Of a stretch of DNA of 44,196 bases, positions 22,203 through 42,297 are shown piece after piece. Both the position numbers and the translations under genes were made by a program. Below the pieces are notes generated by a model that saw nothing but the letters and a program-made list of their open reading frames with translations, was not told the DNA's origin and did not search any database. Each line of letters opens with the position of its first letter. The first letter of the stretch is position 1. The DNA comes from Chromobacterium piscinae (GTDB lineage: Bacteria > Pseudomonadota > Gammaproteobacteria > Burkholderiales > Chromobacteriaceae), in assembly GCF_021129175.1 (NCBI RefSeq), contig NZ_JAJOHV010000084.1, forward strand, positions 1 to 44,196. The letters are read 5' to 3'.

Positions 22203-22277
22203 GTCTCCGTAGTTAAATGGATATAACGGCCCCCTCCTAAGGGGCAGTTACAGGTTCGATTCCTGTCGGGGGCACCA
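22203..22277 (+). tRNA. tRNA-Arg (anticodon CCT)
   Basis: It folds as a full cloverleaf: acceptor stem gtctccg with cgggggc (two G-U pairs), a short D arm, a 5-bp anticodon stem gccc c/ggggc with loop ctcctaa giving anticodon CCT, a T stem acagg/cctgt with ttcgatt, and encoded CCA at 22275-22277. It reads AGG codons. tRNA-Arg genes are frequent integration sites, and a phage-type integrase remnant lies directly downstream. Confidence 0.95.
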
Positions 22278-22308
22278 CACCCAGTTCCAAAATTGTCCAA
22301 AGCGTTAC

Positions 22309-22346
22309 AAAAAAGCCGCATCCCACAAGGGTTTGCGGCTTTTTTT
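22309..22346. terminator. Terminator behind tRNA-Arg (bidirectional)
   Basis: aaaaaagccgca pairs with tgcggctttttt around a 13-base loop and ends in T7 on the + strand; the reverse direction has six T. It ends the tRNA transcript. Confidence 0.88.
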
Positions 22347-22349
22347 CAT

Positions 22350-23898: not shown

Positions 23899-24786
23899 AT
23901 GCCACTTTCGCCCGACTCCTTGAGTCAACTTACCCACAATCAGCGCCAGCGCCTGAGCTACTTGGAATTTTGCCTTTACTTTCTGGGTGAGGTGCGTCGA
24001 GCTGACATGATGGCGCGCTTTGACTGTGCGCCGGCAGTGGTAACGCGAGATATTGCACTGTACCGCCAGTTGGCTGCGGCCAACCTGGAGCTAGACCCGT
24101 CCACCAAAGCCTATTTGCTTGCACCCGGCTTTCATCCACTGTTTGAGCATCGCCTAGAGCAGGTAATGGCCGCGCTGATGCAGGGCGATCCCTACAGCAT
24201 AGAAAGCGTGGGTGGGGCTCTGTTGTCGTGCGACTATCCCGCGCTGCTCAACCGTCCATCACTGACCATCTTGGCTGCAGTCAGCAGGGCGATACGTCTG
24301 CGGCGCTTGTTGAAAGTGCGCTACCACTCTGCCTACAGCGGCGAGCAGGAACGGGTGATTGCGCCACATGCATTGGTAGATAGCGGCCTGCGCTGGCACG
24401 TACGCGCTTACGACCAGTTGCGGCAGCGCTTTATCGACCTAGTGCTTACCCGCATGTTGGCCGTTGAGGTGCAAAATGAGGCCCCCGATCCACAGCAACA
24501 AGCTGAGTGCGATCAGCAATGGCAGCACACCATCACCCTGCAACTGGTGCCACACCCCAAATTACCCGACCCCACCATCGCCACGCTGGATTACGACATG
24601 CGCGACGGCATGCTGTTGCTTACGGTGCGTGCAGCCAATGCCGGCTATTTGCTGCGGCGCTGGTTTGTCGATTGCTCTGCCAATGCCAGTATGGATGATC
24701 CGGCATGTAGGCTTTGGCTAAAGAATAGTCAGTCTATCCAGGGAGCTCAGAGCATGGCAATGGCACCTGGCTACGAGGAAGAGTAG
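23899..24786 (+). CDS. WYL-domain transcriptional regulator (BrxR/CapW-like)
   Basis: The 295-residue protein has an N-terminal winged helix-turn-helix (about residues 15-75, with RRADMMARFDCAPAVVTRDIALYRQ as the recognition part). A WYL domain follows at about 133-190 (VRYHSAYSGEQERVIAPHALVDSGLRWHVRAYD, then FIDLVLTRM), then a C-terminal WCX-like region. Such proteins repress defence operons (BREX, CBASS and others) and are thought to sense a nucleic-acid or nucleotide signal through the WYL pocket. I chose ATG 23899 because the alternative TTG at 23875 lies inside a palindrome that is probably its operator. It precedes the helicase gene by 173 bases, so it may autoregulate and control the whole operon. 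Confidence 0.88.
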   Translation: MPLSPDSLSQLTHNQRQRLSYLEFCLYFLGEVRRADMMARFDCAPAVVTRDIALYRQLAAANLELDPSTKAYLLAPGFHPLFEHRLEQVMAALMQGDPYSIESVGGALLSCDYPALLNRPSLTILAAVSRAIRLRRLLKVRYHSAYSGEQERVIAPHALVDSGLRWHVRAYDQLRQRFIDLVLTRMLAVEVQNEAPDPQQQAECDQQWQHTITLQLVPHPKLPDPTIATLDYDMRDGMLLLTVRAANAGYLLRRWFVDCSANASMDDPACRLWLKNSQSIQGAQSMAMAPGYEEE

Positions 24787-24908
24787 ATGCCAAACAAGGC
24801 AAGGTCACAGTGCAGTGATGATGGGCAAGAGCACTATGTACAGAGCCATGCAGTCGCCGCCTCAAAAGGAATGCAGAGGGCGGCTAGCCAGTGTCAGAAG
24901 AACAGTCA

Positions 24909-24931
24909 CGTGCTGCCTGCAAAGCAGCACG
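24909..24931 (+). promoter_or_regulatory. Hairpin in the leader of the SNF2 helicase gene
   Basis: cgtgctgc pairs with gcagcacg around a 7-base loop, 29 bases before the helicase ATG. It has no T-run. It could affect translation or mark a processing site between the regulator and effector genes. Confidence 0.4.
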
Positions 24932-24959
24932 CAACAACAGCAGTAGTAAGGGAAAGTGA

Positions 24960-27824
24960 ATGCAACTGAGACAAGCCCCTGCGCCTGGCGCACGTGTTTT
25001 GATTCGCGATGAAGAGTGGATCGTTCAGAAAGCCGATATGTGCAGCCTGGGAGGCTGGCAGCTTAGCTGCATTGGGGTATCTGAAACAGTCAGGAACCGC
25101 ACTGCTTTGTTTCTTACCGGGCTGGAGCAGGTCACCATTATTGACCCGGCTAAAACCGACCTGGTGTTCGACGCGTCGCCCACCTTTATGGCTTCTCGGC
25201 TATATGTAGAGGCGCGGCTACGTCAGGCTGCCATTCGCAATGATGCTGTAGTGATGGGGCAGCATGCGGTGATGGATACCATGCCTTTCCAGTTGCAGCC
25301 TGCGCAGCAAGTACTGCAGCAGCTGCGCCCGCGTTTGCTGATTGCGGATACGGTAGGTTTGGGTAAAACGCTGGAAGCCGGCATTCTTACTGCAGAGCTG
25401 GCAAGGCGTGGTAAAGCCCGGCGTATCCTGGTGGTCACCACCAAGAGCATGATGCGCCAGTTCCAGCAAGAATTCTGGAGTCGTTTCACCATCCCGCTTA
25501 CTCGGCTGGACTCGGCAGGTATTCAGCGCATCCGTCGCGATATTCCTACCAACCACAATCCCTTCAACTACTACGACCGTACCATCATTTCGGTCGACAC
25601 CCTCAAGCGGGACAGCGAATACCGTCACTATCTGCAAGAAGCGTGGTGGGACCTCATCATTATCGACGAGGCGCATAACGTCTCTTACAAAGGCAACCGC
25701 ACGCAAAGTAACCGTTTGGCCGAGCTCCTTGCCCAACGCTCGGACGCACTGATTCTGCTAACCGCCACACCGCATAACGGTAAAAAAGAGAGCTTTGCCA
25801 GCCTGATGCGCATGCTGGACCCCACCGTATTGCCGGCGGGTGAGCGTGTTGACTACACCCGTGACGATGTGGGCCACCTGTTTGTGCGTCGCTTCAAGAA
25901 AGACGTGCGCGACCAGATGCAGCAAGACTTCCCGGAGCGCGAAGTCTACCGGCTGGAAACCCAGGCCAGCTCGGCGGAAAACGCGGCCTTCGAAGTCCTG
26001 GCCCGTTTGCGTCTGGCCAGCGATGGCGGAACTCAGCGCGAAGGAGCAATGCTGTTCCGAACCACGCTCGAAAAGGCGCTGTTCTCGTCGCCAGCCGCTT
26101 GCTTGCAAACTCTACGCGAGCGCATGCGACGGGTTGAGAAAAAAGACCCCGCGCATGACGATCTGCCGGCGCTGCGCGAGTTGGAGCAATTGGTTGCCGC
26201 CATCACGCCAGAGAAATTCAGCAAGTTCCAGCATCTGATACGGCAACTCAAGCAAGGGGCAAAGTGGTGCTGGACTGGTGCCGACCCCAGCGACCGTTTG
26301 GTGTTGTTTACCGAGCGTATCGAGACGCTAAAATTCCTGCAAACTGAGCTGCCCAAAGCGCTTGGCCTGGCGGCAGATTCAGTCGCCATTCTGCACGGCC
26401 AGCTACCCGATGTAGAAATCCAGCAGACGGTAGAAAACTTCGGCAAAACCCATTCGCCCCTGCGCTTGCTGATTGCGTCCGATGTGGCATCGGAAGGTTT
26501 AAACCTGCACTACCAGTCGCACCGCCTGGTCCACTTCGACATCTCGTGGTCGTTGATGGTGTTCCAGCAGCGTAACGGCAGGGTCGACCGCTACGGCCAG
26601 ACCAAAACGCCGATGATCGGCTACTTGCTTACGTTGCCGGACAACGAACGCATCCGTGGCGACCTGCGCTATCTGGAAATCCTCATCGACAAAGACGAGC
26701 AGGCCGCCCGCAATATTGGCGACCCGTCAGCCTTCATGGGCCTGTACGACGAGGAACTGGAAGTGGCCGAGGTGGCCGCCGCCATCGAGGGCAAGCGCAC
26801 GGCTGATGAATTTACCGCGCTGCTGGCGCAAGACGACGTCGATCCCTTCGAGTTGCTTTGGTCCAGCACCGTTGACGAAGCACCGGCCTCGGCCGTTACC
26901 ACTTTGCCCACGCCTGCCGCGGCCACCAGCGAGCTGCCCACCTTGTTTAGCGACCACTACCGCTACCTGCGCGACGCCCTGTGTTTGCTGGCCAGCCAGG
27001 CGCCCAAGGAGTTCCCGTCGCTGGACTACGACGACGCCCGCCGCACGCTCAGCTTCCAGCCCGGTAGCGACCTGGCGCAGCGATTGGAGCGCGAGCTGGC
27101 AGACGAAATGCGCCCACACGACAACCAGTTCGCCCTCAGTGCCGACAAGGCCATCATCAACCGCGCCATCGCCGAAGCACGAGATACCAATAGTTGGCCG
27201 CAAGTGCAATACCTGTGGCCGCTGCACCCGGTATCGCAATGGCTGGATTACAAGCTGATGTCCCAGTTCCGCCGCATGTCCGCTCCGGTCATGCGTGTGT
27301 CGAAAGGCCTGCAAGCCGGCGAATCGCTGGTACTGGTGCTGGCGCAAGTGCCCAACCGTCGCGGCCAGGCCATGCTGGCCGAGTGGGTGGCGGTGCAGGT
27401 AGACGCGCGTGGCTACGTAGCCGGCGTTTTGCCCTTGCCCGAGGTACTGCAGCGCACCGGGCTGGCCGACGCGCAACTGGCCAACGATGGCCAGGCACCC
27501 GACACCCGCACCCTGCAGCAAGCCTTGCCCCAGGTGATCGCCGCGGCAGAAGCCCATCTGCGTCCCATCAAACAGGCGTTTGATACCGACTGCCAGCAGC
27601 GCCTCGATAGCGAGCTGGCCAAGCTGCGCACCCTGCAAGACAAACACTTGCAGCAGCTGGCGCTGGATTTCAGCAGCGGTATCGAGCAGGTGAATGCCGC
27701 GCGTCGCAAGCAAAAAGAACACGACACCGCCGACCTGTTCCAGAACTACCAGCAATGGACACGCGACACCCTGCAGCTGGATGACCGCGCCCAATTCACC
27801 ATTGTTGCGGCCTTGATGGCCTGA
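24960..27824 (+). CDS. SNF2-family helicase, DISARM DrmD-like
   Basis: The 954-residue SF2 ATPase has both RecA lobes: Walker A DTVGLGKT at 130-137, DEAH at 236-239, motif III LLTATPHNGK at about 260-270, and in lobe 2 LVLFTERIETLKFL (about 447), ASEGLNLH (about 510) and QRNGRVDRYGQ (about 536-546). The N-terminal region (PGARVLIRDEEWIV) and about 350 extra C-terminal residues fit RapA/DrmD-type SNF2 enzymes that translocate on double-stranded DNA. In class 1 DISARM, DrmD stands beside the methyltransferase, as here: the next gene begins 17 bases later. The predicted role is translocation or remodelling on invading DNA. Membership of DrmD proper against another SNF2 branch needs a phylogeny. 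Confidence 0.88.
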   Translation: MQLRQAPAPGARVLIRDEEWIVQKADMCSLGGWQLSCIGVSETVRNRTALFLTGLEQVTIIDPAKTDLVFDASPTFMASRLYVEARLRQAAIRNDAVVMGQHAVMDTMPFQLQPAQQVLQQLRPRLLIADTVGLGKTLEAGILTAELARRGKARRILVVTTKSMMRQFQQEFWSRFTIPLTRLDSAGIQRIRRDIPTNHNPFNYYDRTIISVDTLKRDSEYRHYLQEAWWDLIIIDEAHNVSYKGNRTQSNRLAELLAQRSDALILLTATPHNGKKESFASLMRMLDPTVLPAGERVDYTRDDVGHLFVRRFKKDVRDQMQQDFPEREVYRLETQASSAENAAFEVLARLRLASDGGTQREGAMLFRTTLEKALFSSPAACLQTLRERMRRVEKKDPAHDDLPALRELEQLVAAITPEKFSKFQHLIRQLKQGAKWCWTGADPSDRLVLFTERIETLKFLQTELPKALGLAADSVAILHGQLPDVEIQQTVENFGKTHSPLRLLIASDVASEGLNLHYQSHRLVHFDISWSLMVFQQRNGRVDRYGQTKTPMIGYLLTLPDNERIRGDLRYLEILIDKDEQAARNIGDPSAFMGLYDEELEVAEVAAAIEGKRTADEFTALLAQDDVDPFELLWSSTVDEAPASAVTTLPTPAAATSELPTLFSDHYRYLRDALCLLASQAPKEFPSLDYDDARRTLSFQPGSDLAQRLERELADEMRPHDNQFALSADKAIINRAIAEARDTNSWPQVQYLWPLHPVSQWLDYKLMSQFRRMSAPVMRVSKGLQAGESLVLVLAQVPNRRGQAMLAEWVAVQVDARGYVAGVLPLPEVLQRTGLADAQLANDGQAPDTRTLQQALPQVIAAAEAHLRPIKQAFDTDCQQRLDSELAKLRTLQDKHLQQLALDFSSGIEQVNAARRKQKEHDTADLFQNYQQWTRDTLQLDDRAQFTIVAALMA

Positions 27825-27841
27825 AGTAAGGAAACCGCCAC

Positions 27842-30800
27842 ATGAGTTTTGCCATTCCCGGCCTGGATAACGCCAACGAGTTTTACAGTCAGCACTACCT
27901 GGACGACATCCTGGAGCGCGACCTCAAGCCGCTGTTCGACAAATGGAAAGAGCAGGGCAACAACAGCCCGCTGGCCAAAGTACGCTCCGCTTCGGGTACC
28001 AATAGCTACTTCCGCGCCCGCGACCGCTTTCTGGCAGAAAAAAAACGCAGCGAACGCCAGGCATTGTTCATCGACCTGGTGCAGCCGCTGCTGGAAGCCA
28101 TCGGTTATGGCCTTTCGCCGCAAGACCTGCCGCTGGTAGAAGGCGAACTACCTGTGCTGGCAGTCTACCGCGACGCTCGTCAGCAACCGTTGCTGGTGAT
28201 CGCCGCCGCCGTGGCCGATCCGGCCGACGACGAAGCCGGCCCGCTGCAGCTGTGCCCGAGCCAGCCTGGCAAGCACGGTAGCGAAGACTGGGAAGAAATC
28301 ATCAGCCGCCGGCTGTTTGCCGACGACCACCCGCCGCGCTGGGTGCTGCTGGTACACCACGACGAATGGCTGCTGATCGAACGCAGCAAATGGAGCCGCA
28401 AGGCCCTGCTGCGCTTTAACCTGCCCGAGCTATTCGGCCCGCGCGACGACCGCGCGCTGCGGGCTTTTGCCGCGCTGGCAGGCGCCGCCTCAGTGCTGCC
28501 CGCCGAAGGCGGTGCAGCCCTACTGGACACCCTGGACGACAGCTCGCACAAGCACGCCTTTGAAGTGTCTACCGACCTCAAATACGCCCTGCGCGAGTGT
28601 ATCGAGCTGATCGGCAACGAAGCCATTCGCTACAAGCGCGAAGTGGCCAAAGAAAAGGTGTTCGACCGCAACGATACCGACCTGGCGGAGCAACTTAGCC
28701 GCGAATGCCTGCGCTATATGTACCGCCTGCTGTTCCTGCTCTATATCGAAGCCCGGCCAGAGCTGGGCTACGCCCCCATCAATGCCCCGGCCTATCTCAA
28801 GGGCTATAGCGTAGAGCACCTGCGCGAGCTGGAACGCACACCGCTGACCACGCCCGAGGCGCAAGACGGCTTCTACTTCCACGACAGCCTCAAGCAGCTG
28901 TTCGACCTGATCTGGCAAGGTTACCCGCGCCGCGATGCCCACGCTGGCCAGATCGACCTGCAAGCCGATGCCGTGCTGGAAACCGGCTTTGCCATTGCCC
29001 CGCTGCAAGGCCATTTGTTCGACCCGGCACAGACCAAGCTGCTGGGCAGCGTACGCCTGCGCAACCGCGTACTGCAGCGCGTTATCGAGTTGATGTCGCT
29101 GTCGCGCAGCGGCAAGGGCAATCGCCGTGGCCGTATCAGTTATGCCACGCTCGGCATTAACCAGCTGGGCGCGGTATACGAGGCGCTGCTGTCGTTCCGC
29201 GGCTTTTTTGCCGAAGAAGAACTGTACGAAGTCCGTCCCGACCCCAAAGGCAAGAAAGCTGCTAGCGCTGACGGCGACGAAGACGCCGACGATATCGACG
29301 ACGCCGGCCTGGACGCTCCCAGTGCCGCCGACAAGAAAAAAGACGCCGTGCTAGACCCGCTGGACGCCGCCTACTTTGTACCGGCCAGCCAGATCCACCT
29401 CTACACCGACGCCGAGCGGCTATTTGGCGGCGAGCCGCGCCGCTATCCCAAGGGCACCTTTATCTACCGCCTGGCCGGCCGCGCCCGCGAAAAATCCGCC
29501 AGCTACTACACGCCAGAAGTGCTCACCCAGTGCCTGGTCGAGCACGCGCTGAAAGAAATCCTGCCCGGCAAATCGGCGGACGAGATCCTGCAGCTCACCG
29601 TGTGCGAACCGGCCATGGGCAGCGCCGCGTTCTTGAACGAAGCCGTCAACCAGCTGGCCGAAGCCTATCTGCAAGCCAAGCAGAAAGAGCTGAGGCAGAG
29701 CATTCCGCACGAGCAGTACGCCGAAGAAAAGCAGCGCGTCAAAATGTACATTGCCGACAGCAATGTGTTTGGCGTGGACTTGAACCCGGTGGCGGTAGAG
29801 TTGGCCGAGGTCTCGCTGTGGCTGAACGCCATCTTCAAGGGCAGCCACGTGCCGTGGTTTGGCCTGCAGCTGTACAGCGGCAACTCGTTGGTGGGTGCCC
29901 GTCGCGATGTGTTCAGCACCGCCCAGCTATCGCCGGGCAAGGGCGATGGTGGCCAGCCGGAACGCGACTGGCGCTGCGCGGTGCCGCGCGCACTCAAGCT
30001 GGTTGACACCCCTGCCAGTACTGATATTTTCCACTTCCTGCTGCCGGCCGAAGGCATGGGCATGGTCTGCGACAAGGTGGTGAAGGCGCTGGAGCCAAAA
30101 GCCGTTGATGATTTCAAGCTTTGGCGCAAAACCTTCTGCGCCCCGCTCAGCCGCGACGAAGTAACCCGCGTGCAAACGCTGGCCGCAGCGGTAGAGCAGC
30201 TGTGGCAGCAGCATGCGGCCGAGCTGGCCCGCGTGCGTGCGGGCACCAGCGACCAGCTGCACGTATGGCCAGACCCTGCGGCCAACCATGCGCCCACCAG
30301 CACCGCGCAGAAAGACGCCATCTTCCAGCGCGAAATGCTCAGCGAAGCGCAAAAAAACGCCAGCCCCTACCGCCGCCTGAAGCTGGTAATGGATTTCTGG
30401 TGCGCGCTATGGTTCTGGCCGCTGGACCAGGCTGCCGAGCTGCCCAGCCGCGAGCACTGGTGGTTTGTGCTAGAGACAGTGCTGCTGGGCAGTGCCAGCC
30501 TGGCCAGCCAACCGGCTACCGATCTGTTTGTCGAAACCCTGCCACAGCAAGGGCTGGACTTCACCCCGGAGCGCGACCGCCACGGCCACGTCGACCTGGC
30601 CGCGCTGATGGCGGCGCTGCCGCAGCTGCAAGTGGCCAACATGGTGGCACAACAACAGCGTTTCATGCACTGGGAGCTGGAGTTTGCCGACCTGTTCAAG
30701 GCGCGCGGCGGTTTTGATGTCATCCTGGGTAACCCGCCGTGGATCAAGGTAGAGTGGAGCGAGCAGTCGCTGCTGTCCGACTTCGACCCGCGTTTTGCCA

Positions 30801-32743
30801 TCCGCAAGCTGTCGGCCAAGCAGACTGCCGACCAGCGCGACGCCGTATTTGCCGCACAGTTGGCCGCACGCGCTGATTATCTGGCTGAGTGCGTGGCGTG
30901 CGAAGGCATGGGGCAGTTCTTGAATGCATGGCAGAACTATCCATTGCTGAAAGGCCAGCAAAGCAATCTGTACAAATGCTTCCTGCCGCTGGTGTGGCGT
31001 GTGGGGGCGGGGGTACAGGCTTTGCTGCACCCTGAGGGCGTGTATGACGATCCGAAAGGGGGGGGCTTGCGTGCAGAGCTATACCCTAGGCTTGCTGCTC
31101 ATTATCAATTTGCCAATGAGCGTTTGTTGTTTGCTGAAGTGGATAATCATACACGTTACAGTATTAACGTTTATGGCCAACGCAAGGCTCAGCCAAAGTT
31201 CATCACCGCGGCTAGTTTACTTGATCCCATCACCCTTAAGAGGAGCCTTGAGCACGCTGGTGGTGGGCAAGTGCCTAGCATGAAAACAGATCAAGGAAAA
31301 TGGGAACTCGCTGGTCATGCTAGCCGGTTGATCGAGGTTGATGCCGCCATGCTTGCCACCTTTGCACAGCTCTACGACGAACCGGGCGCCCCCTGGGTTC
31401 AGGCGCGTTTGCCGGCAGTGCATAGCCGCGAATTGGTGTCGGTGCTAGAAAAGTTTGCCAAGGTGCCGCGTCGCTTGGGGGACTTGCAGGGTGATTACTA
31501 CACGACTGTTTGTTTTGATGAAACCTACGCACAAAGAGATGGGACTATCCGCCGCGGTACCGGCTTTGTCGATAGCCCCGCCGACTTTGTGTTGTCCGGG
31601 CCGCATTTCTATGTTGGCAACCCGCTGAATAAAACCCCTCGCGCTGTTTGTGACACGAACAAAGCCTACGACCAGCTCGACCTCGAAGCCTTGCCCAACG
31701 ACTATCTGCCGCGTAGCAACTACCAGCGTGAATGCGCTACCGACGTCTACCTGGCACGCACCCCGCGAGTGAGCTGGGTAGAGGCGGGGGAGAAAGAGGC
31801 CAAACCGGTGACGGCGTATTACCGTACTATTTCTCGTCGTGGCCTGAGCATTTCAGGGGAGCGCACTTTGCTATCGGCCATTGCGCCAAAAGGTGTTTGC
31901 CACATCGACGGTGTTTTCTCAGTAGCGAGCAAAGATCAAACAGTTATTCCCCAGCTTGCCGGCTTATGGGCTTCTGTACCCTTCGATTTTTTTATCAAGA
32001 GCTCAGGTAAAGGTGACTTCCGTAATTCATTAGCCGAAACAATGGTGATGCCAGAAATGGCTGGTCTGGCTAGTGCACTTCTTGTTAGGACGCTTTCGCT
32101 TAATGCACTGACTAGTAGTTACGGGGAGCTATGGGAGGCAAGTTGGGATGACGCATTCTGCGATGACCAATGGTCCAATCCCGACCCGCGCTTGCCGCAA
32201 GACTTCTTCACCAAGCTGACGCCTGAGTGGCAGCGTAGTTGTGCGCTACGCAGCGACTACGCCCGCCGCCAGGCGCTGGTGGAAATCGACGTGTTGGCCG
32301 CACAGGCGCTGGGGCTAACGCTTGACGAGCTGCTCACCATCTACCGCGTGCAGTTCCCGGTGATGCGCCAGTACGAGCGCGACACCTGGTACGACGCCCG
32401 TGGCCGTATTGTCTTTACCGCCAGCAAGGGCCTGGTGGGTGTAGGCCTGCCGCGAAAGTCCGGCAAGAAAGACGCCGCCTGCAAGCTGATCTTTTCTGAC
32501 ACCGGCAGCGATATCCGTCGCTTGGGCTGGGAAGACATCATGCCCAAGCGCGCCGACGACGGCACGCTGCAGCCGAAAGTGCCGGACGGCACTGTCATCC
32601 AACGCCCGACTATCGACGACACCCAGCCCAGCGGCCCGGTAGAACGCACCATCCAGTACGTCGCCCCCTTCACCCTGGCCGACCGCGAAGCCGACTACCG
32701 CGTGGCGTGGGCGCACTTTGCCAAGGAGCAAGACAATGGGTAA
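27842..32743 (+). CDS. Large N6-adenine DNA methyltransferase (Eco57I/PglX/DrmMI-like)
   Basis: The 1633-residue protein has the SAM-binding motif CEPAMGSAAFLNEAV at about residues 587-601, motif II FGVDLNPVAVELAEVSLWLN at about 645, and catalytic motif IV NPPW at about 964-967 (DVILGNPPWIKVEW). These define a gamma-class adenine methylase of the Eco57I type. About 550 residues precede the catalytic core; I see no clear PD-(D/E)xK nuclease motif there. The region from about residue 1050 to 1440 probably contains the target-recognition domain and has clearly lower G+C than both sides. In DISARM and BREX such enzymes mark host DNA as self. Its stop overlaps the kinase start by 8 bases. At 1633 residues it is longer than most PglX/DrmMI proteins. 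Confidence 0.9.
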   Translation: MSFAIPGLDNANEFYSQHYLDDILERDLKPLFDKWKEQGNNSPLAKVRSASGTNSYFRARDRFLAEKKRSERQALFIDLVQPLLEAIGYGLSPQDLPLVEGELPVLAVYRDARQQPLLVIAAAVADPADDEAGPLQLCPSQPGKHGSEDWEEIISRRLFADDHPPRWVLLVHHDEWLLIERSKWSRKALLRFNLPELFGPRDDRALRAFAALAGAASVLPAEGGAALLDTLDDSSHKHAFEVSTDLKYALRECIELIGNEAIRYKREVAKEKVFDRNDTDLAEQLSRECLRYMYRLLFLLYIEARPELGYAPINAPAYLKGYSVEHLRELERTPLTTPEAQDGFYFHDSLKQLFDLIWQGYPRRDAHAGQIDLQADAVLETGFAIAPLQGHLFDPAQTKLLGSVRLRNRVLQRVIELMSLSRSGKGNRRGRISYATLGINQLGAVYEALLSFRGFFAEEELYEVRPDPKGKKAASADGDEDADDIDDAGLDAPSAADKKKDAVLDPLDAAYFVPASQIHLYTDAERLFGGEPRRYPKGTFIYRLAGRAREKSASYYTPEVLTQCLVEHALKEILPGKSADEILQLTVCEPAMGSAAFLNEAVNQLAEAYLQAKQKELRQSIPHEQYAEEKQRVKMYIADSNVFGVDLNPVAVELAEVSLWLNAIFKGSHVPWFGLQLYSGNSLVGARRDVFSTAQLSPGKGDGGQPERDWRCAVPRALKLVDTPASTDIFHFLLPAEGMGMVCDKVVKALEPKAVDDFKLWRKTFCAPLSRDEVTRVQTLAAAVEQLWQQHAAELARVRAGTSDQLHVWPDPAANHAPTSTAQKDAIFQREMLSEAQKNASPYRRLKLVMDFWCALWFWPLDQAAELPSREHWWFVLETVLLGSASLASQPATDLFVETLPQQGLDFTPERDRHGHVDLAALMAALPQLQVANMVAQQQRFMHWELEFADLFKARGGFDVILGNPPWIKVEWSEQSLLSDFDPRFAIRKLSAKQTADQRDAVFAAQLAARADYLAECVACEGMGQFLNAWQNYPLLKGQQSNLYKCFLPLVWRVGAGVQALLHPEGVYDDPKGGGLRAELYPRLAAHYQFANERLLFAEVDNHTRYSINVYGQRKAQPKFITAASLLDPITLKRSLEHAGGGQVPSMKTDQGKWELAGHASRLIEVDAAMLATFAQLYDEPGAPWVQARLPAVHSRELVSVLEKFAKVPRRLGDLQGDYYTTVCFDETYAQRDGTIRRGTGFVDSPADFVLSGPHFYVGNPLNKTPRAVCDTNKAYDQLDLEALPNDYLPRSNYQRECATDVYLARTPRVSWVEAGEKEAKPVTAYYRTISRRGLSISGERTLLSAIAPKGVCHIDGVFSVASKDQTVIPQLAGLWASVPFDFFIKSSGKGDFRNSLAETMVMPEMAGLASALLVRTLSLNALTSSYGELWEASWDDAFCDDQWSNPDPRLPQDFFTKLTPEWQRSCALRSDYARRQALVEIDVLAAQALGLTLDELLTIYRVQFPVMRQYERDTWYDARGRIVFTASKGLVGVGLPRKSGKKDAACKLIFSDTGSDIRRLGWEDIMPKRADDGTLQPKVPDGTVIQRPTIDDTQPSGPVERTIQYVAPFTLADREADYRVAWAHFAKEQDNG

Positions 32744-33839: not shown

Positions 33840-33877
33840 GTCTGCTATCTGTCGATTTCAAAGAACAGGTTTGTGAC

Positions 33878-36800
33878 ATGCAACCTCTCATCGTCGCCCA
33901 ACAAGTTACCCAGGGTATTGCCGACTTTCTGCGCGCCGCCTTTCCCGCCAGCAGCCCCGGTTTTGCCGGGGTAGTCGAACGCTTTCTTGAGCAGCGTGAC
34001 AATGTGTTCAAGGGGCCGTACCTGAGCATTCCGCTGCCTTTCCGGCAGCAGGCGGGCGAGGCACCGGCTTTTGCGTGGCTACCGGCCGGGTTTATTCCGC
34101 ACGCCCACCAGGCCAAGGCCTTCCGCCGCCTGGCGGGTGACGATGCGCGTTCTACGCTGGTGGCCACCGGCACCGGCTCTGGCAAGACCGAGTGCTTTCT
34201 GTACCCGATTCTGGAGCATTGCCGACTGCAGCATGCAGCAGGCAAGCGTGGCATCAAGGCCGTTATTTTGTACCCGATGAACGCGTTGGCAGGCGATCAG
34301 GCCACCCGGGTTGCGAAGGAGATACTGAAGGCGGGTGCACTGGCCGGGGTGCGGGCGGGCTTGTATGTGGGTGAAACGCCAGAGGTGACGTCGCAGGCGG
34401 TGACCACGCTACCCGATGGCAGCGTGACGGTGATTACCGACCGTGACGAGCTGCGGACCAATCCGCCGGATATCTTGCTGACCAACTACAAGATGCTGGA
34501 CTTCCTGCTGGTACGCGCGGCCGATACCCCGCTGTGGGCGTATCAGCAGCCGGATACCTTGCGTTATCTGGTGGTGGACGAGCTGCATACCTTTGATGGG
34601 GCACAGGGCACCGATTTGGCTTGTCTGGTGCGCCGTCTGAAAGGCCGCCTGGATACCCCGCCGGGACAGCTGGTGTGCGTGGGCACGTCGGCAACCCTGG
34701 GCGACGATGGGGTGGGAGATTTGTTGCGCTTTGCCGGCGATATCTTTGGCGAGGCGATGGATGAAGAGGCGGTGATTGCCGAAGACCGCGTTTCGGTAGG
34801 CGACTACCTGGCCGATGCCGTGATCGAATACATGCAAACCCCGCAGCCGGCCAGCGTGGCTGCGCTGGACCCGGCGCAGTATGGTGATATCGCCAGCTAT
34901 ATCGCGGCCCAGTTTGCCCTGTGGTTTGGCCGCACGGTGACCGCGGCAGAAGTGAGGGAAAAAGCCTGGCGGGAAGCGCTGGGCGTGGCCTTGAGGAGCC
35001 ACTTTGCTTTTCAGAACCTGCTGCGCGATCTGGACCGGCTTGGTAGCAAATCAGTTGTGCTGGAAGACCTGCTGGCCTTGCTGCCGCGCCGCTTGCCGGC
35101 CTTTGACGATGAGTGCTATCCCTTGTTGTGGCTTTCCAGTCTGTTGTCGCTGATTGCTTACGCCCGCAAGCCGGGGCATCAGGACTTCTTTTTGCAAGTA
35201 AAGGTAGAAATCTGGCTGCGCGAGCTGCGGCGCATGGTGGCTCCGCTGTCTTTACAGCCGGCGCTGATGTTCCATGACGATTTGGGCCCTGCTGAAAAAG
35301 AGCACGTTTATCTGCCGGTTATCCACTGCCGCGACTGCCACGCTACCGGCTGGGGCAGCACGGTGCACAAAACCAGCCCCAATCAACTATCTCGTGATCT
35401 GCAGGGCTTTTATAGCGCGTTCTTTGCCGAAGACGTGTCGACGCGGTTTATTTTTCCGCCGAGCGAAAACCCGGACCTACGCGTTTTTGAGCGCAAGCAG
35501 GTGTGCCCGGGATGCGGCACCTTGCACCAGGCTAGCCATACCAGCTGCAGCCATTGTCAGCACGAGGGGCTGCTGCCGGTGGAAATTACTGCCAACCTGC
35601 GCGAGAGCACTAAGAACGGCGCCAAGTACACGCGCTCGCATCACGATTGTCCATACTGCGGCGGCCTCAAGACGCTGAGTATTGTGGGCTCGCAAGCGGC
35701 CAGCCTGGCAGCTGTGATGGTGGCGCAGATGTTTGCGTCACGCTTTAACCCCGACAAGAAGCTGATTGCGTTTTCGGACTCGGTGCAGGATGCCGCGCAC
35801 CGTGCCGGTTTCCTGGCGGCACGAACCTGGCGCCTCAACCTGCGCCCCGCGTTGGCGCAGGTGATTGTTGATGCAGCGCAAACCGGCCTGCCGCTTAGCC
35901 TGGCCGACTTGCCACAGGCTTTCGAGCAACGTTGGCGCACCCAGCTGGGCGATGGCCATTACCTGGCAAATTTCCTGCCACCGGTTCTGCACTGGTTACG
36001 CGATTACGAAACGCTGATGGTCGAGGGCGCGCTGCCTGCCGACAGCGAGCTGCCCAAGCTGATATCGCAAATCATGCCGTGGCTGATTAATGCCGAGTTT
36101 GGCCAGGATGCACGAATCGGCCGCTCCCTGGTGGTAACCGGTACCGCCAGCGTTCAGCCCGACCCGCAAGCGCTGGAGAGCGCGGTCAATTGGCTGTTGC
36201 CGCGTGTGTCGCAAGAGATCGACCCGCTAGCAGGGGTAACTGCCGCCGAAGTGAAGGTGTTTTTGAGTGGCCTGATTGAAACCATGATCCGCGCCGGTGC
36301 CTGGCAAGATGCGGGGCTGGATTTTTACGCCAAGGTGGGCTCTACCCCGTGGCCGTACAAGAGAACACCGTTCCAGTACAAGCTACTGACGAGTCCGCGC
36401 TCGCCGCGCTTTTTGTCGCTGGTGGCATACAAGCAATCGCTGAGTGTTGCGGGTGAAAAGTTATTCCGCGCCTGGGCATTCAAGGCCTTTGCGGCATTGC
36501 ACAGCGTGGCGCTGGGGGCGGATGCCCTGATTATCCCCTTGTACCGTCTGGCGTTAAGAGCGCTGGTAGAGGCCAAGCTTGCAGTAGAGCTGGATGGTGA
36601 CACCACCGAAGAGGTGAGTGTATGGGGTTTGCAGCCTAAAGCCTTCAGAGTGCTGCCAGGGGTAAGCCATTGGCAGTGCGCCAATTGCCACAGCGCAGTG
36701 TTTGCCGCGCACGATGATTCGTTGGCCGGCCAACCTTGCCGCCGGTTGGATTGTCGTGGGCAGTTGGCGGCAGCCGAGCCATTAGGTGACTACTATCGCA

Positions 36801-39800
36801 AGTTGTACTTGAACGCCGATATCCAGCGAGTGGTGGCGCACGAGCATACCGGTTTGTTACCACGCGAAACCCGAGAGCGGGTCGAGCGCAACTTCAAATC
36901 GGACAGCGGCCAACCTGGTGCCATTAATGTGCTGTCCGCTACGCCGACGCTGGAGATGGGTATCGACATCGGCGATTTGTCGTGCACCTTGTTGTGCTCG
37001 GTGCCGCCGCAGCAGGCTAATTATATTCAGCGGGCCGGCCGGGCCGGCCGTAGTACCGGTAATACCTTGCTGATGACGATGGCCACCAGCAAGCCGCACG
37101 ACCTGTACTTCTGGCAAGACCCCAAAGCCATGATTGCCGGCAGTGTGCAGGCACCTGGCGTGTTTCTAAATGCCTCTGCAGTATTGGAGCGCCAGCTTAC
37201 TGCTTTTACGCTGGACTGCTGGGTACGGGAAACCGGCCAAGCGGCACAGATTCCGGCAGAGGTACGCGCGGTATTTGCGGCAATTGAAAAGCAGAACCTT
37301 AGCCGCTTCCCTTACCCCTGGTTGAGCTTCATCGATCAAAACCGCGAAAGCCTGCTGAGTCGCTTTGTCGCGCTGTTCAATACCGGTGCTTTTACCCCTC
37401 TCACACCAGAAACCGTGCAGTGGCTCAGTACCTTCATTGATGGCGGTATCGGAGAAGAAGGATCTTTGCCTTGGAAGCTGGTGCATCGTTTGAGTGGTAT
37501 TGCTAATGATGTAACTGAAATCAAGCGCCAGCGCGACCGCACCGTGAAGGAGGCCGAAAAGCTTCAGGCGCTGGAAGTGTTGGGTGAGGAGCAGCAGGAA
37601 GAACTGGTGCAACTGCAACAGGAACGAATCGCCTTGGCGCGCTTGGTCGGCGCCATTGAGGGCAAGGCCACGCTGAATGTGCTGACGGACGAAGGCTTGT
37701 TGCCCAACTATGCCTTCCCGGAACAGGGGGTGTTGCTGCGCTCCATCATCGTGCGAGATGCCAAGCCGAGTACCGAGCGGCCAGACCCGCTGACTTTTGA
37801 GTATGAGCGGCCGGGTGCTGCGGCCATTACTGAGCTAGCGCCTAATAACACGTTCTACGCTGAGGGGCGCCGGGTGATGGTGAGCCAGGTGGATGTGTCC
37901 AAGATCAAGCCAGAGGCCTGGCGTTTCTGCCGCCAGTGCGCGTACACCGAGCCGCTGTCGTCGGGCGATCATCATCAGAACTGCCCGCGTTGCGGCGATA
38001 CCTTGTGGCGCGATAGTGGGCGCGTGCACGAGATGTTGAGGCTGACAACGGTTTTTGCCCGCACGCTGGACCGAGACAGCCGCATTGCAGACGACAGTGA
38101 CGAGCGTCAGCGCGGGTTTTATGTGCGCCAGGCCTTGGTGGACTCAGCCCCCGAGGCGGTACGGCAAGCATTTGCCGTAGACCAGCCGTCGTTTCCGTTT
38201 GGTTTCGAGTTTCTCGACAAAGTGACATTCCGCGAGGTGAACTTTGGCGAGCAGACGCCAGAGCCAAACCCCATGGTGGTTGCGGGCGAAGAGCTAAACC
38301 GGCCGGGTTTCACGATTTGCCCGGAGTGCGGCACGATTCAGCGCCGGCGCAAAGCGGACGAGCAGTACCGTAACCATGCGGCTTGGTGCAGCCGTCGCAA
38401 GGATGCCGAAGCGAATACGCAGCAGTGTGTGTTTTTGTACCGAGAGTTTACAAGCGAGGGTATTCGCATCTTCCTGCCGGAAGTGGGCTTTACCGATACC
38501 AAAGGCGCGTTGCTGAGCTTTGTGGCTGCGCTGGAACTGGGTCTGACCAAACGCTTCAGGGGGGCGGTGGCTCACTTGCGCATTGCGCTGGATGTACGCA
38601 TGGCGGCAGGGTCTGATCAGCCACGGGCTTATCTGGTGATTTACGACAGCGTGCCAGGGGGGACGGGTTATCTGAAAGAGCTGATGCGAGACCCGGAGCC
38701 CTTGTTTGAGGTGATGTCTCTGGCCTTGCAGTCTCTGGATGCTTGTCCTTGCAACCAGGATGACGAAGCTGATGGTTGCCATCGTTGTGTCTATCGATAT
38801 CACAACAGTAGCGACCGCCACGCTATTTCGCGCCGGGCAGCACAAAAGCTGCTGGGCCAGGCCTTGCAGCATAAGGCGGCGCTCAAGCCGGTAGGCAATT
38901 TGTCCACCCTATCGACCAGTAATGCTTTGCTGGATAGCGTGCTGGAGCAGCGTTTTATTGAAGCGCTGCGGCGTTCGCATGGCGGTACCAAATTCGAATT
39001 GTCCGAATTACTTTTCCGTGGCAAACCGGGTTATCTGGTGAAAGCCAATGGTCGTCGCTGGTGCCTCGAACTACAGGTAAACCTTGGGCCGCAAGATGGG
39101 GTGGTGCTAGCCAGTAAGCCAGACTTTGTGTTCTGGCCAGATGACACTAGTGATGACAAGCCAATTGCGGTGTTTCTGGATGGATGGCAGTACCACAAGG
39201 ATATCATCACCCAAGATCTGGCAAAACGCATGGCGATTGCCAAGAGTGGCAAGTTTTCGGTTTGGACCTTGACCTGGGACGATTTGGAAGAAGCGCTGCA
39301 GGGTAAGCTGCCAGCAACGCCTTCGCCCTGGCCAGCTTTGATTCATGAACAAGCCGCAGCAGGATTGGCCAAGCTATTTAATGTACAGGGCATAGAGCAT
39401 CTGTCTGCCCTCAAGGCTATGCCGGTATTTCAGCAGCTGCATTACCGTTTATATGCCTGCGACCATCAGGCTATGCGCAAGCATGCCTGCGTACTGGGCA
39501 TTGGCCTAATGAAGCCAGAAGGGGATGCAACGCAGTTGGCTGCATTGAAGGTAGGAGACTGGTGGCGGCGCTTGGTCGATCTGGCCTTGCTGCCCGATAC
39601 GCGGCAGTACAAGTGGAGCATGCGTTTACTATGGGGCTCTTGCGGTATGGCCATCGGCCTGGATGCCCCAAGCTTAGGGCATATTCTACAAGGTGGGTCA
39701 AAGCCTTTGCACGAGCCAGTGCTTGTCGTGCAGTGGAAGGATCAGATCGGTTCGGATATTGAGTGCCTGCAGCGGTGGCAACAGCTGTGGCAATGTCTGA

Positions 39801-40198
39801 ATCTGTTGCTGCCCTTAAGGCACCTTTGGATAGGGAATGATGCCATGGTAGGTGTGGACAGCATGCACGCCTGCCCAGCCTTGCACATGAAAGAGGCTGA
39901 CTTGCCTGCTGAGTGGACGGGTGTGGCAGAGGTGTGCGATGCCATTCTCCAGCCATTTTTGGTTACGATGGCGGCACGGCTACCACTACCAGAAGATGGT
40001 TTTGCCTTGCTCAACGACAAGGGACGCGTCATGGCAGAGGCTGAGTTGGCTTGGCCACTGCACAAGGTAGCAGTACTGTTACCTGACAATGATGACCAAG
40101 TGGCAGTCTTTAAGCAGTATGGCTGGCATATATTTGTGCTAAATGATGGTTTTGATGTCGATCAGCTGATTGGACTAATGACGGAGTTGAACGCATGA
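33878..40198 (+). CDS. Giant fusion: DrmA-like helicase + DUF1998 (DrmB-like) + Vsr-like nuclease-fold tail
   Basis: This 2106-residue protein begins with an SF2 helicase: Walker A TGTGSGKT at 97-104, DELH at 234-237, GTSATLG at about 268. Zinc-type Cys pairs follow at 484/487 and 543/546, with SCSHC and CPYCGG after them. Lobe 2 has LSATPTLEMGIDIGDL (about 1018) and QRAGRAGR (about 1051). Further CxxC pairs and a DUF1998 region come next, with its Cys cluster at 1623, 1625, 1634 and 1637 (ACPCNQDD, then DGCHRCVY). The tail from about 1690 carries KPDFVFWP with Asp1749 and VFLDGWQYH with Asp1768 and His1773, resembling Vsr/DUF559-type PD-(D/E)xK folds. In DISARM, helicase (DrmA) and DUF1998 protein (DrmB) are separate genes. 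The stop overlaps the next start (ATGA). Confidence 0.85.
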   Translation: MQPLIVAQQVTQGIADFLRAAFPASSPGFAGVVERFLEQRDNVFKGPYLSIPLPFRQQAGEAPAFAWLPAGFIPHAHQAKAFRRLAGDDARSTLVATGTGSGKTECFLYPILEHCRLQHAAGKRGIKAVILYPMNALAGDQATRVAKEILKAGALAGVRAGLYVGETPEVTSQAVTTLPDGSVTVITDRDELRTNPPDILLTNYKMLDFLLVRAADTPLWAYQQPDTLRYLVVDELHTFDGAQGTDLACLVRRLKGRLDTPPGQLVCVGTSATLGDDGVGDLLRFAGDIFGEAMDEEAVIAEDRVSVGDYLADAVIEYMQTPQPASVAALDPAQYGDIASYIAAQFALWFGRTVTAAEVREKAWREALGVALRSHFAFQNLLRDLDRLGSKSVVLEDLLALLPRRLPAFDDECYPLLWLSSLLSLIAYARKPGHQDFFLQVKVEIWLRELRRMVAPLSLQPALMFHDDLGPAEKEHVYLPVIHCRDCHATGWGSTVHKTSPNQLSRDLQGFYSAFFAEDVSTRFIFPPSENPDLRVFERKQVCPGCGTLHQASHTSCSHCQHEGLLPVEITANLRESTKNGAKYTRSHHDCPYCGGLKTLSIVGSQAASLAAVMVAQMFASRFNPDKKLIAFSDSVQDAAHRAGFLAARTWRLNLRPALAQVIVDAAQTGLPLSLADLPQAFEQRWRTQLGDGHYLANFLPPVLHWLRDYETLMVEGALPADSELPKLISQIMPWLINAEFGQDARIGRSLVVTGTASVQPDPQALESAVNWLLPRVSQEIDPLAGVTAAEVKVFLSGLIETMIRAGAWQDAGLDFYAKVGSTPWPYKRTPFQYKLLTSPRSPRFLSLVAYKQSLSVAGEKLFRAWAFKAFAALHSVALGADALIIPLYRLALRALVEAKLAVELDGDTTEEVSVWGLQPKAFRVLPGVSHWQCANCHSAVFAAHDDSLAGQPCRRLDCRGQLAAAEPLGDYYRKLYLNADIQRVVAHEHTGLLPRETRERVERNFKSDSGQPGAINVLSATPTLEMGIDIGDLSCTLLCSVPPQQANYIQRAGRAGRSTGNTLLMTMATSKPHDLYFWQDPKAMIAGSVQAPGVFLNASAVLERQLTAFTLDCWVRETGQAAQIPAEVRAVFAAIEKQNLSRFPYPWLSFIDQNRESLLSRFVALFNTGAFTPLTPETVQWLSTFIDGGIGEEGSLPWKLVHRLSGIANDVTEIKRQRDRTVKEAEKLQALEVLGEEQQEELVQLQQERIALARLVGAIEGKATLNVLTDEGLLPNYAFPEQGVLLRSIIVRDAKPSTERPDPLTFEYERPGAAAITELAPNNTFYAEGRRVMVSQVDVSKIKPEAWRFCRQCAYTEPLSSGDHHQNCPRCGDTLWRDSGRVHEMLRLTTVFARTLDRDSRIADDSDERQRGFYVRQALVDSAPEAVRQAFAVDQPSFPFGFEFLDKVTFREVNFGEQTPEPNPMVVAGEELNRPGFTICPECGTIQRRRKADEQYRNHAAWCSRRKDAEANTQQCVFLYREFTSEGIRIFLPEVGFTDTKGALLSFVAALELGLTKRFRGAVAHLRIALDVRMAAGSDQPRAYLVIYDSVPGGTGYLKELMRDPEPLFEVMSLALQSLDACPCNQDDEADGCHRCVYRYHNSSDRHAISRRAAQKLLGQALQHKAALKPVGNLSTLSTSNALLDSVLEQRFIEALRRSHGGTKFELSELLFRGKPGYLVKANGRRWCLELQVNLGPQDGVVLASKPDFVFWPDDTSDDKPIAVFLDGWQYHKDIITQDLAKRMAIAKSGKFSVWTLTWDDLEEALQGKLPATPSPWPALIHEQAAAGLAKLFNVQGIEHLSALKAMPVFQQLHYRLYACDHQAMRKHACVLGIGLMKPEGDATQLAALKVGDWWRRLVDLALLPDTRQYKWSMRLLWGSCGMAIGLDAPSLGHILQGGSKPLHEPVLVVQWKDQIGSDIECLQRWQQLWQCLNLLLPLRHLWIGNDAMVGVDSMHACPALHMKEADLPAEWTGVAEVCDAILQPFLVTMAARLPLPEDGFALLNDKGRVMAEAELAWPLHKVAVLLPDNDDQVAVFKQYGWHIFVLNDGFDVDQLIGLMTELNA

Positions 40199-42297
40199 GC
40201 TTGACCCCAAAAATCGCCATATCAGATGACTTTCTGAAGTCATTTGCCGCGGTGCCGCGCTCGCACCAGCAAGCGGTGCTGAATTTTGTTGCCAAGTTTA
40301 GGCAAAATCCTTTGGCCACGGGTATCAATTACGAGCGAATCCATGATGCAGCTGACCCCAACATGCGGTCGGTACGAGTAAACGACAATATCCGTGGCAT
40401 TGTGTTGAAACCGGATGTGGGCAATGTGTATTGCTTGCTGTGGGTGGACCAGCATGACGACGCTTATCAATGGGCAAGGCGACATAAAGTTGCCATTCAC
40501 CCTGAAGTAGGCAGCATTCAGATTTTTTCGGTGGAAGAGGCCGCTGCAGCCAACAATGTGGCGGTTGCAGTTGACCAACCGGCTGGCTTGTTTGCCGGGC
40601 TGAAAGATCGCGAGATTAGGCGCTTGGGCGTGCCTGATGAGATGCTGCCATTGGTACGTGCGGTGGCCAATGACGCAGAGCTGGATTCCTTGCAATCTCG
40701 CTTGCCAGATGAGGCCTACGAAGCCTTGTTTTTGTTCGCGGCCGGTGACTCGCTGGAGCAGGTTCTTCTGGAAATGGAGGCTCAGCAGGAGCCTATCGAC
40801 CCGCATGACTTTAGCGCGGCCTTGGATCGAGATGTGTCGCGCCGACATTTTGTCGTGCTGACGGATGACAGCGACCTTGAGGCACTGCTTGGCGCCCCAC
40901 TTGAGCGGTGGCGAGTGTTTTTGCACCGCAGTCAACGTAAGCTGGTCGAGCGTGACTGGAGTGGTCCGGTAAAAGTAACGGGTGGGGCGGGGACAGGTAA
41001 AACGGTTGTTGCGATGCATCGTGCCGCAAGGCTGGCAAAACAATACGCGGATATTCCCGGGCGGCCAGTGGTGTTCACCACATTTACCAAGACGCTTGCC
41101 GAAGATATCCGGCAGCACCTTGCCTTGCTTTGCAGCCCGCAGGAGTTGGAAAAAATCCAGGTTGTCAACCTGGACCAATGGGCTTCTGGCTTGCTTCGCC
41201 GCTTTGGCTACAAAAGTAATTTGCTGTATAGCGAATCAGAGCGACGGCAGTACTGGAACGCAGCGATGTCGGCACTTTCTGGCAGCGTGGATCTGTCTCC
41301 GACATTTTTGCGTGCTGAATTTGAGCGCGTGGTATTGCCACAAGGTTGTGAGACGGCCGAAGACTATATGCGAGCCAGTCGTATCGGGCGTGGTGGCCAG
41401 CTGAGCCGGCAGCTGCGCAAGGCAATCTGGCCAGTTTTTGCCGAGTATCGTGCCCAGCTACAGGCTGCCCAGTACAAAGAGCCTGAAGAGGCTTTCCGCG
41501 AGGCGGCACAATTGTTGGCAGGCTCTGCTGAGTCGCTCGGCATCCGCGCTATGGTTGTCGATGAGGCCCAGGACATTAGTAGCGCCGCCTTTGAGCTTAT
41601 CCGTATTGCGGTACCGCCGGCAGAGAATGATCTTTTCATTGTCGGTGATGCGCACCAGCGTATCTATCGGCACAAGGTAGTTTTGAGCCGTACCGGTATT
41701 GAGGTACGAGGCCGTAGCAAAAGCCTGAAGGTGAACTATCGGACTACAGATGAAATTCGCCGCTGGGCGTGCGCCCAGTTGGAAGGATGCGACATTGACG
41801 ATCTTGACGGTAACCAGGACTCCTTGCGTGGTTACAAATCGCTAACACATGGCGATTTGCCTGATGTATTGCATAGCACCTCCATACAAGAGGATGCGGT
41901 ACACGTTGGCGCTATCCTCAAAGAGCTTGCTGCAGATGGTATCGATGCTCGCCAAGTGTGCGTGACTGCCAGAACTAATGATGATCTGGATGCGATAGCA
42001 ACTGTGCTGAGACAGGCTAATGTTGCCGTTCACAAGTTGGACACCAATACGGCTGATGATGAAGCTGCTGCTGGTGTACGGCTTTCAACCATGCATCGGA
42101 TTAAAGGCCTGGAATTCAATGTGGTGGTTATTGCGGCTTACAAAGGAGTCGAGGCCTATGCGGCACTTCACAGCCGCGATGAGGATGCTGGTGTTGCGGA
42201 GGAAACAGAGGTGGCAGAGCGCTGCTTGTTGCATGTGGCGGCTACCAGGGCAAAACAGCATCTTTTTGTGTTGAACCGTGTTGCCAACGTTGCCTAG
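40195..42297 (+). CDS. UvrD-type helicase with a RelE/ParE-like N-terminal domain
   Basis: The 700-residue protein has two parts. Residues 1-100 (ISDDFLKSFAAVPRSHQQAVLNF, then SVRVNDNIRGIVLKPD and VYCLLWVDQHDDAYQWARRH) match the RelE/ParE toxin fold. From about 240 a superfamily 1 helicase follows: Walker A GGAGTGKT at 263-270, DEAQD at 456-460, VNYRTTDEIRRWA (motif IV region), STMHRIKGLEF (about 632) and HVAATRAKQHL (about 680). No antitoxin gene is adjacent, so the RelE part may serve nucleic-acid or ribosome contact instead of free toxicity. It is the last gene of the operon, joined by a 4-base ATGA overlap to the giant fusion gene. It probably unwinds or processes DNA intermediates of the system. 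Confidence 0.87.
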   Translation: MSLTPKIAISDDFLKSFAAVPRSHQQAVLNFVAKFRQNPLATGINYERIHDAADPNMRSVRVNDNIRGIVLKPDVGNVYCLLWVDQHDDAYQWARRHKVAIHPEVGSIQIFSVEEAAAANNVAVAVDQPAGLFAGLKDREIRRLGVPDEMLPLVRAVANDAELDSLQSRLPDEAYEALFLFAAGDSLEQVLLEMEAQQEPIDPHDFSAALDRDVSRRHFVVLTDDSDLEALLGAPLERWRVFLHRSQRKLVERDWSGPVKVTGGAGTGKTVVAMHRAARLAKQYADIPGRPVVFTTFTKTLAEDIRQHLALLCSPQELEKIQVVNLDQWASGLLRRFGYKSNLLYSESERRQYWNAAMSALSGSVDLSPTFLRAEFERVVLPQGCETAEDYMRASRIGRGGQLSRQLRKAIWPVFAEYRAQLQAAQYKEPEEAFREAAQLLAGSAESLGIRAMVVDEAQDISSAAFELIRIAVPPAENDLFIVGDAHQRIYRHKVVLSRTGIEVRGRSKSLKVNYRTTDEIRRWACAQLEGCDIDDLDGNQDSLRGYKSLTHGDLPDVLHSTSIQEDAVHVGAILKELAADGIDARQVCVTARTNDDLDAIATVLRQANVAVHKLDTNTADDEAAAGVRLSTMHRIKGLEFNVVVIAAYKGVEAYAALHSRDEDAGVAEETEVAERCLLHVAATRAKQHLFVLNRVANVA

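Follow-up and report, generated by a model that had tools for sequence, protein, structure and literature searches.

How should a protein kinase gene in the middle of a phage defence operon be read: as a working part of that operon, or as something the operon carries? The question is raised by a six-gene operon at positions 23899..42297 of a contig (NZ_JAJOHV010000084.1, assembly GCF_021129175.1) of Chromobacterium piscinae; the whole stretch analysed, 44,196 nucleotides long, is called the window here. An original prediction, made from the letters and their open reading frames, had proposed a distinct DISARM-related anti-phage system with a non-canonical set of parts. We favor a different reading, to which we give a probability of about 0.7: an operon of ARMADA, a system whose 2025 description gave it its name and a strict order of genes (PMC12458937), of type II, with a WYL regulator, on a tRNA-Arg island, carrying one embedded and exchangeable kinase defence gene between armB and armC. 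Examining where the kinase lies brought out a wider pattern, a slot for cargo, and this is of more interest than the kinase itself.

Operon layout and the ARMADA type II core

Six open frames without internal stops lie on the plus strand (lengths in amino acids, aa):

23899..24786, + strand: WYL-domain regulator, probably controlling the operon (Pfam WYL 8.8e-13)
24960..27824, + strand: armA, SNF2/RapA-type helicase, BrxHII/DrmD-like (SNF2 and Helicase_C domains; PADLOC DrmD 5.3e-96)
27842..32743, + strand: armB, PglX-like N6-adenine DNA methylase, 1633 aa (Pfam Eco57I/N6_Mtase)
32736..33839, + strand: Ser/Thr protein kinase, 367 aa, in the armB-armC slot (Pfam Pkinase 1.7e-13)
33878..40198, + strand: armC, YprA-family helicase with MZB/DUF1998-type zinc domain, 2106 aa (Pfam DEAD, Helicase_C, MZB; PADLOC DruE 2.9e-104)
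40195..42297, + strand: armD, UvrD/GajB-like helicase (Pfam UvrD-helicase 1.1e-21)

The WYL and SNF2 genes are separated by 173 base pairs (bp), followed by 17 bp to the methylase, an 8-bp overlap with the kinase, 38 bp to the next helicase and a 4-bp overlap with the UvrD gene; the single strand and the last four spacings had been predicted exactly. The complete set also occurs in one other genome, G1006, at a DNA identity of 86-89%, with identities of 88% for WYL, 97% for ArmA, 89% for ArmB, about 93.5% for the kinase and 92% each for ArmC and ArmD. Since the set recurs in G1006 and the pairwise ratio of nonsynonymous to synonymous substitution rates (dN/dS) is below 0.2 for all six genes, these are not chance open frames. 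The highest value of the six belongs to armB (27842-32743; 0.177 vs 0.029-0.074), perhaps reflecting a shifting DNA-target specificity.

ARMADA type II comprises a BrxHII-like ArmA, a PglX-like ArmB, a YprA-like ArmC and a RelE-UvrD ArmD in that strict order, and proteins 2, 3, 5 and 6 of the operon fit these by order and family in PADLOC, Pfam and NCBIfam (PMC12458937 for the type). They are 46, 47, 38 and 47% identical to the copy on an Escherichia coli plasmid (L010; BLAST). Mutational work in E. coli found that changes at ArmA K136/D236, ArmB N971, ArmC K110/D234 and ArmD K266 abolish protection, and that changes at ArmB G605 and ArmD D454 weaken it (PMC12458937). In the plasmid copy the numbering of these eight residues agrees exactly with the publication, and none of the eight is changed in the window proteins: ArmA K136 and D236 share the E. 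coli numbering, ArmB conserves N964 of NPPW and G593 of motif I, and ArmD conserves the Walker K269 and D456. Judged by sequence, four of the six genes are armA-armB-armC-armD of ARMADA type II; the original prediction was right to bring up the ARMADA name. Because these four match in order and family and the eight residues are conserved, the UvrD helicase is ArmD and not an added part; of the two genes previously taken as additions, the kinase alone lies outside the published core.

The 2106-aa protein had been taken for a fusion of drmA and drmB. It is ArmC, with its best score against Druantia DruE (2.9e-104 vs 1.1e-16 for DrmA in PADLOC) and an MZB match in Pfam (2.4e-11); its placement on the ARMADA/Druantia branch follows from profile scores and not from a tree with Druantia or DISARM rows. 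Its C-terminal domain shows an invariant E, D, D-G, H, D and R in 30 aligned homologues, a PD-(D/E)xK-like arrangement, and a PDB sequence search with this putative nuclease end returned no relevant match. The end is predicted in ARMADA to be a Vsr-like nuclease, not a phospholipase-D-like one (PMC12458937).

Of the domains first assigned to the six proteins, WYL, SNF2, N6 methylase, kinase, DUF1998-type helicase and UvrD are recovered. For the RelE part of ArmD there is a weak profile match of the N-terminus (positions 5-92 vs 3-90, E = 0.98) to PDB 1wmi, which we take to be an archaeal RelE; the ARMADA report assigns this domain to RelE (PMC12458937). ArmD is present in 87 of 95 non-window loci, and seven of the other eight end in or shortly after armC. 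The eighth, L039 (Rhodothermales), is long enough for armD and has no BLAST match, the sole such case.

A variable slot at the armB-armC junction

The junction that holds the kinase was compared across 108 non-window loci with ArmC relatives: 80 from GTDB genome contigs, 19 viral contigs, 3 plasmids (of 27 records) and 6 class genomes besides the window (of 369). The GTDB part is the best 80 of at least 556 confirmed stretches, a best-match and not a random sample. Gaps of more than 400 bp occur between armB and armC in 31 of 64 measurable loci, compared with 1/41 between armA and armB and 3/81 between armC and armD (31/64 vs 4/122 for the other junctions pooled; Fisher p = 2e-13). The first count includes two near-copy pairs and becomes 30/62 without these; the 3/81 is a relaxed version, a stricter one that required the ArmC match to reach the C-terminus giving 1/48. 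Six loci with 10 kb of upstream sequence in which ArmB was not found (L035, L073, L075, L077, L081, L086) are left out of the count, and possibly have larger cargo or have lost armB.

With cargo frames called mechanically, no more than 150 bp separate the armB stop from the first frame in 30 of the 31 occupied slots, and the last frame comes equally close to armC in 28. Of 117,411 bp of called frames, 103,770 lie on the operon strand. Empty and filled states are found in close pairs (L013/L012 in Nostoc, L097/L057 and L098/L023). An ArmC tree of 63 labelled rows requires no fewer than 18 switches of occupancy, a count close to the mean of 21.4 under shuffling (58 of 500 shuffles reach a value this low), and the slot therefore seems to turn over fast. 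Within E. coli, 519 of 5426 complete genomes matched the armB-armC junction of the ARMADA II plasmid copy; among the matches listed it is unbroken in 39 of 40 rows, the fortieth being a short unrelated match. O157:H7 strains are among these 40.

What the occupied slots hold

PADLOC was run on one or more proteins from 27 of the 31 slots with cargo, and in 18 of these a match reached 1e-10 or better. The first slot proteins were chosen by eye; for 20 further slots the largest plus-strand frame was taken, except in L085, where the last frame was tested. The four remaining slots are L042, L046 and L095, for which Pfam gave no match, AbiEii and Schlafen-AlbA, respectively, and L067, a near-copy of L063. 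The PADLOC readings (for L059 and L063, PADLOC and Pfam) are:

L076 (Pseudomonas dryadis): HEC-01A/B with PsyrT/PsyrA
L054 (Desulfobacula): GajA and GajB
L058: CBASS cyclase with phospholipase effector
L031 (Amphritea): ZorA2 and ZorB2
L022 (Simplicispira): MkoA
L093, L060: TmtA-model proteins
L065: AbiEii
L053: LeoB
L084, L085: NsnB and NsnC
L043: ThsA-type SIR2
L059, L063: Orf5/type IV enzyme and GmrSD-type proteins
L033: PDC-M07A
L061: PDC-M68B
L064: pAgo-model protein, read as Schlafen-AlbA-like
L019: weak helicase match

The Nostoc slot of L012 has a 185-aa AAA-like frame (13376-13930) with no PADLOC match, which may be a remnant of a larger ATPase.

The embedded kinase

The kinase likely starts with an ATG at position 32736, so that its first 8 bp overlap the end of the methylase gene; its C-terminal tail may form a winged helix. 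It has a glycine loop, the VALK lysine and the HADIKPAN and DMG motifs, and its dN/dS of 0.068 against G1006 indicates that it is maintained under purifying selection.

A BLAST search of the 108 non-window loci, of which 64 span the junction between armB and armC, found no match to the kinase. Wider scans returned only its own copy among 61 relatives and among 369 class genomes, its own copy and that of G599 among 398 phylum genomes, and G599 alone among 198 genomes of the family of G599. Plasmids and phages gave five weak partial matches each, and viral contigs, scanned twice, gave none. The G599 homologue is full-length and 43% identical, with none of the other five genes within 20 kb; no armB was found in that genome by a search that had no positive control.

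An armB scan of the window's family (61 genomes) found G1006 and G991 besides the window, the latter with armABCD and a different gene of 222 aa in the slot. An order scan gave loci in 5 of 399 genomes, window and G1006 included, and three more loci were thereby gained. In an ArmC tree of 11 chosen rows the window falls in a group of eight, starred there, in which the kinase is present twice (window and G1006), in one clade. The slots of the other six hold:

G1098: HNH and HipA
G1252: Schlafen-AlbA (the armB match stops at residue 1359)
G1286: short frame, no identity assigned
G991: 222-aa gene
Pseudomonas dryadis: HEC-01 and PsyrTA
G334: Leo and HipA (the contig has no armB, and a search of the genome returned none)

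As a candidate core part of ARMADA the kinase was rejected: within ARMADA it recurred only in G1006, found via armB.

Two further observations concern these neighboring slots. The G991 gene (L143 9346-10011; 222 aa) has no Pfam match and is possibly cysteine-peptidase-like by eye, which makes it a candidate defence gene. HipA-type proteins precede armC in two close relatives (L112 4184-5794, with a helix-turn-helix partner, and L150 11936-13249); theirs is a kinase fold unrelated to the window kinase.

Proposed mechanism and rival explanations

The E. coli ARMADA II protects directly, without cell death, and needs the Walker motifs of ArmA, ArmC and ArmD and the NPPW motif of ArmB (PMC12458937). 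Given the conservation described above, the window core should act in the same way: by analogy, ArmA-D would stop the phage directly while the cell survives, drawing on their helicase motors, the methylase and the predicted nuclease tip of the YprA helicase, and the WYL gene would probably set operon expression. The original prediction further proposed that self DNA is modified and unmodified DNA attacked, which may hold here; defence in E. coli depended on the ArmB NPPW motif (PMC12458937). The kinase, inserted between armB and armC and presumably on the same transcript, would most likely form a second, self-contained layer with its own trigger, phosphorylating host or phage targets on infection. 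A broader version, which we rate at somewhat less than even odds, makes ARMADA II a carrier chassis: the armB/armC seam would be a dedicated site of exchange and expression where second systems are swapped per lineage and translationally tied to the operon, firing as a backup when ARMADA fails. The kinase would be one such backup, and slots not yet read would hold new candidate systems.

Kinases paired with a PglX-type methylase may regulate in other systems, PglW in Pgl/BREX type 2 and MAD6 in MADS, and the window kinase could likewise belong to this ARMADA branch as a genuine subunit or switch, sensing infection or phosphorylating ArmA-D. We regard this as unlikely, if a serious contender. 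MAD6 is the top kinase match in both PADLOC and NCBIfam (PglW scores far lower), the kinase overlaps armB by 8 bp, and kinase and operon remain together across two genera (ArmC 92%, kinase 93.5%); the close relatives G991, G1286, G1098 and G1252, however, have armABC(D) with other cargo, the 108 sampled loci (64 spanning the junction) gave no match to the kinase, a homologue lies outside ARMADA in G599, unrelated known systems sit at the same site, and in E. coli the four ARMADA II proteins give defence although no kinase is among them (PMC12458937). The kinase might instead be a passenger with no defence role, or a toxin-like gene held by addiction: slots also hold toxin-antitoxin type genes (AbiEii, HipA), and no antitoxin is seen beside the kinase. 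Strong purifying selection and complete catalytic motifs make this quite improbable. Even less credible is the new system of six obligatory parts that the original prediction put forward. The single strand, the tight spacing and the recurrence of all six genes in G1006 would suit it, yet order, family and tested residues identify four of the genes as ARMADA II, and WYL and kinase are the two that do not match. ArmD is widespread among relatives, whereas the kinase gave no match in the 108 sampled loci (64 spanning the junction) and one in G1006, and BLAST of the sampled ARMADA loci gives WYL matches in just three others (L052, L097, L101).

Several observations weigh against the embedded, exchangeable kinase that we prefer. 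The loci were sampled by best match and not at random. Nine of the 27 tested slots (L012, L023, L049, L051, L057, L068, L069, L079, L096) have no PADLOC match at 1e-10, and the flanks are rich in defence genes too: the largest frame downstream of armD matched PADLOC in 3 of 10 control loci (the first ten of 22 rows), a difference from the slots that is not significant (p = 0.07). The PADLOC matches of the kinase itself are weak (mad6 1.3e-16, PD-T4-6 5.2e-13). Its independence from ARMADA is argued from one outside homologue, that of G599, in the scans of 398, 369 and 198 genomes, and its retention with the operon in two genera is what a functional link would also predict.

Relation to known systems

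The operon resembles the ARMADA type II of E. coli NCTC 12900 and ATCC 8739 in gene order, protein families, tight or overlapping genes, the eight tested residues and location on an island at a tRNA with a phage-type integrase (PMC12458937). It differs in the upstream WYL gene, in the kinase between armB and armC and in protein identities of just 38-47% to the E. coli plasmid copy. The word 'kinase' is absent from the main text of the ARMADA paper, supplements excluded (PMC12458937).

An anti-phage operon of a DISARM-related type, as first proposed, is supported: the SNF2 helicase and PglX-like methylase are related to DrmD and DrmMI of DISARM class 1. Unlike that class, the operon has a UvrD gene, lacks separate drmA and drmB and joins its helicase and DUF1998-type part in one protein whose best match is DruE, not DrmA. 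For the six proteins, neither the full Pfam results nor those of NCBIfam contain a model of DrmC, PglZ or BrxC, in agreement with the original prediction; PADLOC was covered to 25 rows for four of them, and window genes beyond the six were covered in part; PglZ and BrxC are the hallmarks by which BREX would be recognized. The ArmC protein scores best with DruE3 of Druantia type III, but no DruH is seen among the six, methylase and SNF2 genes are present, and the nuclease end predicted for ARMADA is Vsr-like and not phospholipase-D-like (PMC12458937).

The MADS gene set includes the MAD2 methylase and the MAD6 kinase, and both models score far below their cut-offs here (MAD6 41.5 bits vs 460; MAD2 29.6 vs 720). 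PD-T4-6 is a single-gene defence kinase, and several of its models match the window kinase and the MkoA of L022 alike; they seem to read kinases in general.

Embedded defence genes are known already, such as HEC genes nested in Hma clusters (Payne et al. 2024, as cited in PMC11411939 and PMC12629846), TgvAB nested in a type I restriction-modification operon (PMC11411939) and backup effectors in BREX loci (PMC12839542). The present case likewise nests additional defence genes within a defence operon of several genes, and one ARMADA slot, that of L076, even contains HEC-01. It differs in having ARMADA II as the host, with insertions concentrated at a single junction. No mention of this slot was met in the literature, covered mostly at title and abstract level with supplements excluded. 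The core is thus known, while the use of ARMADA II as a carrier for second defences, and their concentration at armB-armC, look new. What stays new at this locus is the kinase and its junction, and the original prediction overstates the novelty.

If the pattern is true, a hot junction that repeatedly takes up Gabija, CBASS and Zorya genes, HEC-01 and PsyrTA would offer a direct route to new defences by reading the slot, and would make it possible to examine whether such systems are wired into the host operon. The kinase could serve as an immediate test case, since it can be compared both with the E. coli relative that has no kinase and with its own homologue outside ARMADA.

Regulation and island setting

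The WYL gene lies at the same place in G1006, 88% identical, and no WYL match was found within 1.56 kb upstream of armA in G991. One candidate control element lies between it and armA:

24905..24935, no strand: inverted repeat with 8-bp perfect arms and 7 nucleotides between, candidate operator or leader hairpin

This repeat is altered in G1006 and still mostly paired. A promoter scan gave sites no commoner than in shuffles (7 vs 7.5).

Upstream of the operon lie the probable marks of an island:

22203..22277, + strand: tRNA-Arg (CCT), probable island integration site (ARAGORN)
22293..22760, + strand: phage-type tyrosine integrase, shortened N-terminal piece of 155 aa (Pfam Arm-DNA-bind_3 3.4e-26, Phage_int_M 2.8e-8)
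22793..23725, - strand: IS5-family transposase, adjoining the integrase piece (NCBIfam transpos_IS5_2 4.6e-115)

The guanine-cytosine content is 0.54-0.63 across 22-42 kb compared with 0.60-0.69 upstream (2-kb windows). The tRNA-Arg gene and its flank were matched in 19 of 19 same-genus genomes, own included. Flanks of 1.5 kb per side were compared in 18, and in one of these, G381, the right flank of the window (from 42507) follows the tRNA after about 690 bp. Because of the lower guanine-cytosine content, the tRNA-Arg with its integrase piece and the right-flank position in G381, the operon probably sits on an island of about 20 kb, whose right border is set by the G381 comparison alone. A search for an attachment repeat, a second copy of 12 or more bases from the tRNA 3' region, found none in the rest of the window. 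At the right border, sensor-kinase-like sequence recognized by eye (42300-42990, - strand) lies beside an AdeR-like response regulator and may have been shortened by the island, open-frame lengths being ambiguous on this point. At the left, the integrase frame of just 155 aa and the IS5-family transposase alongside suggest that the island may no longer excise itself.

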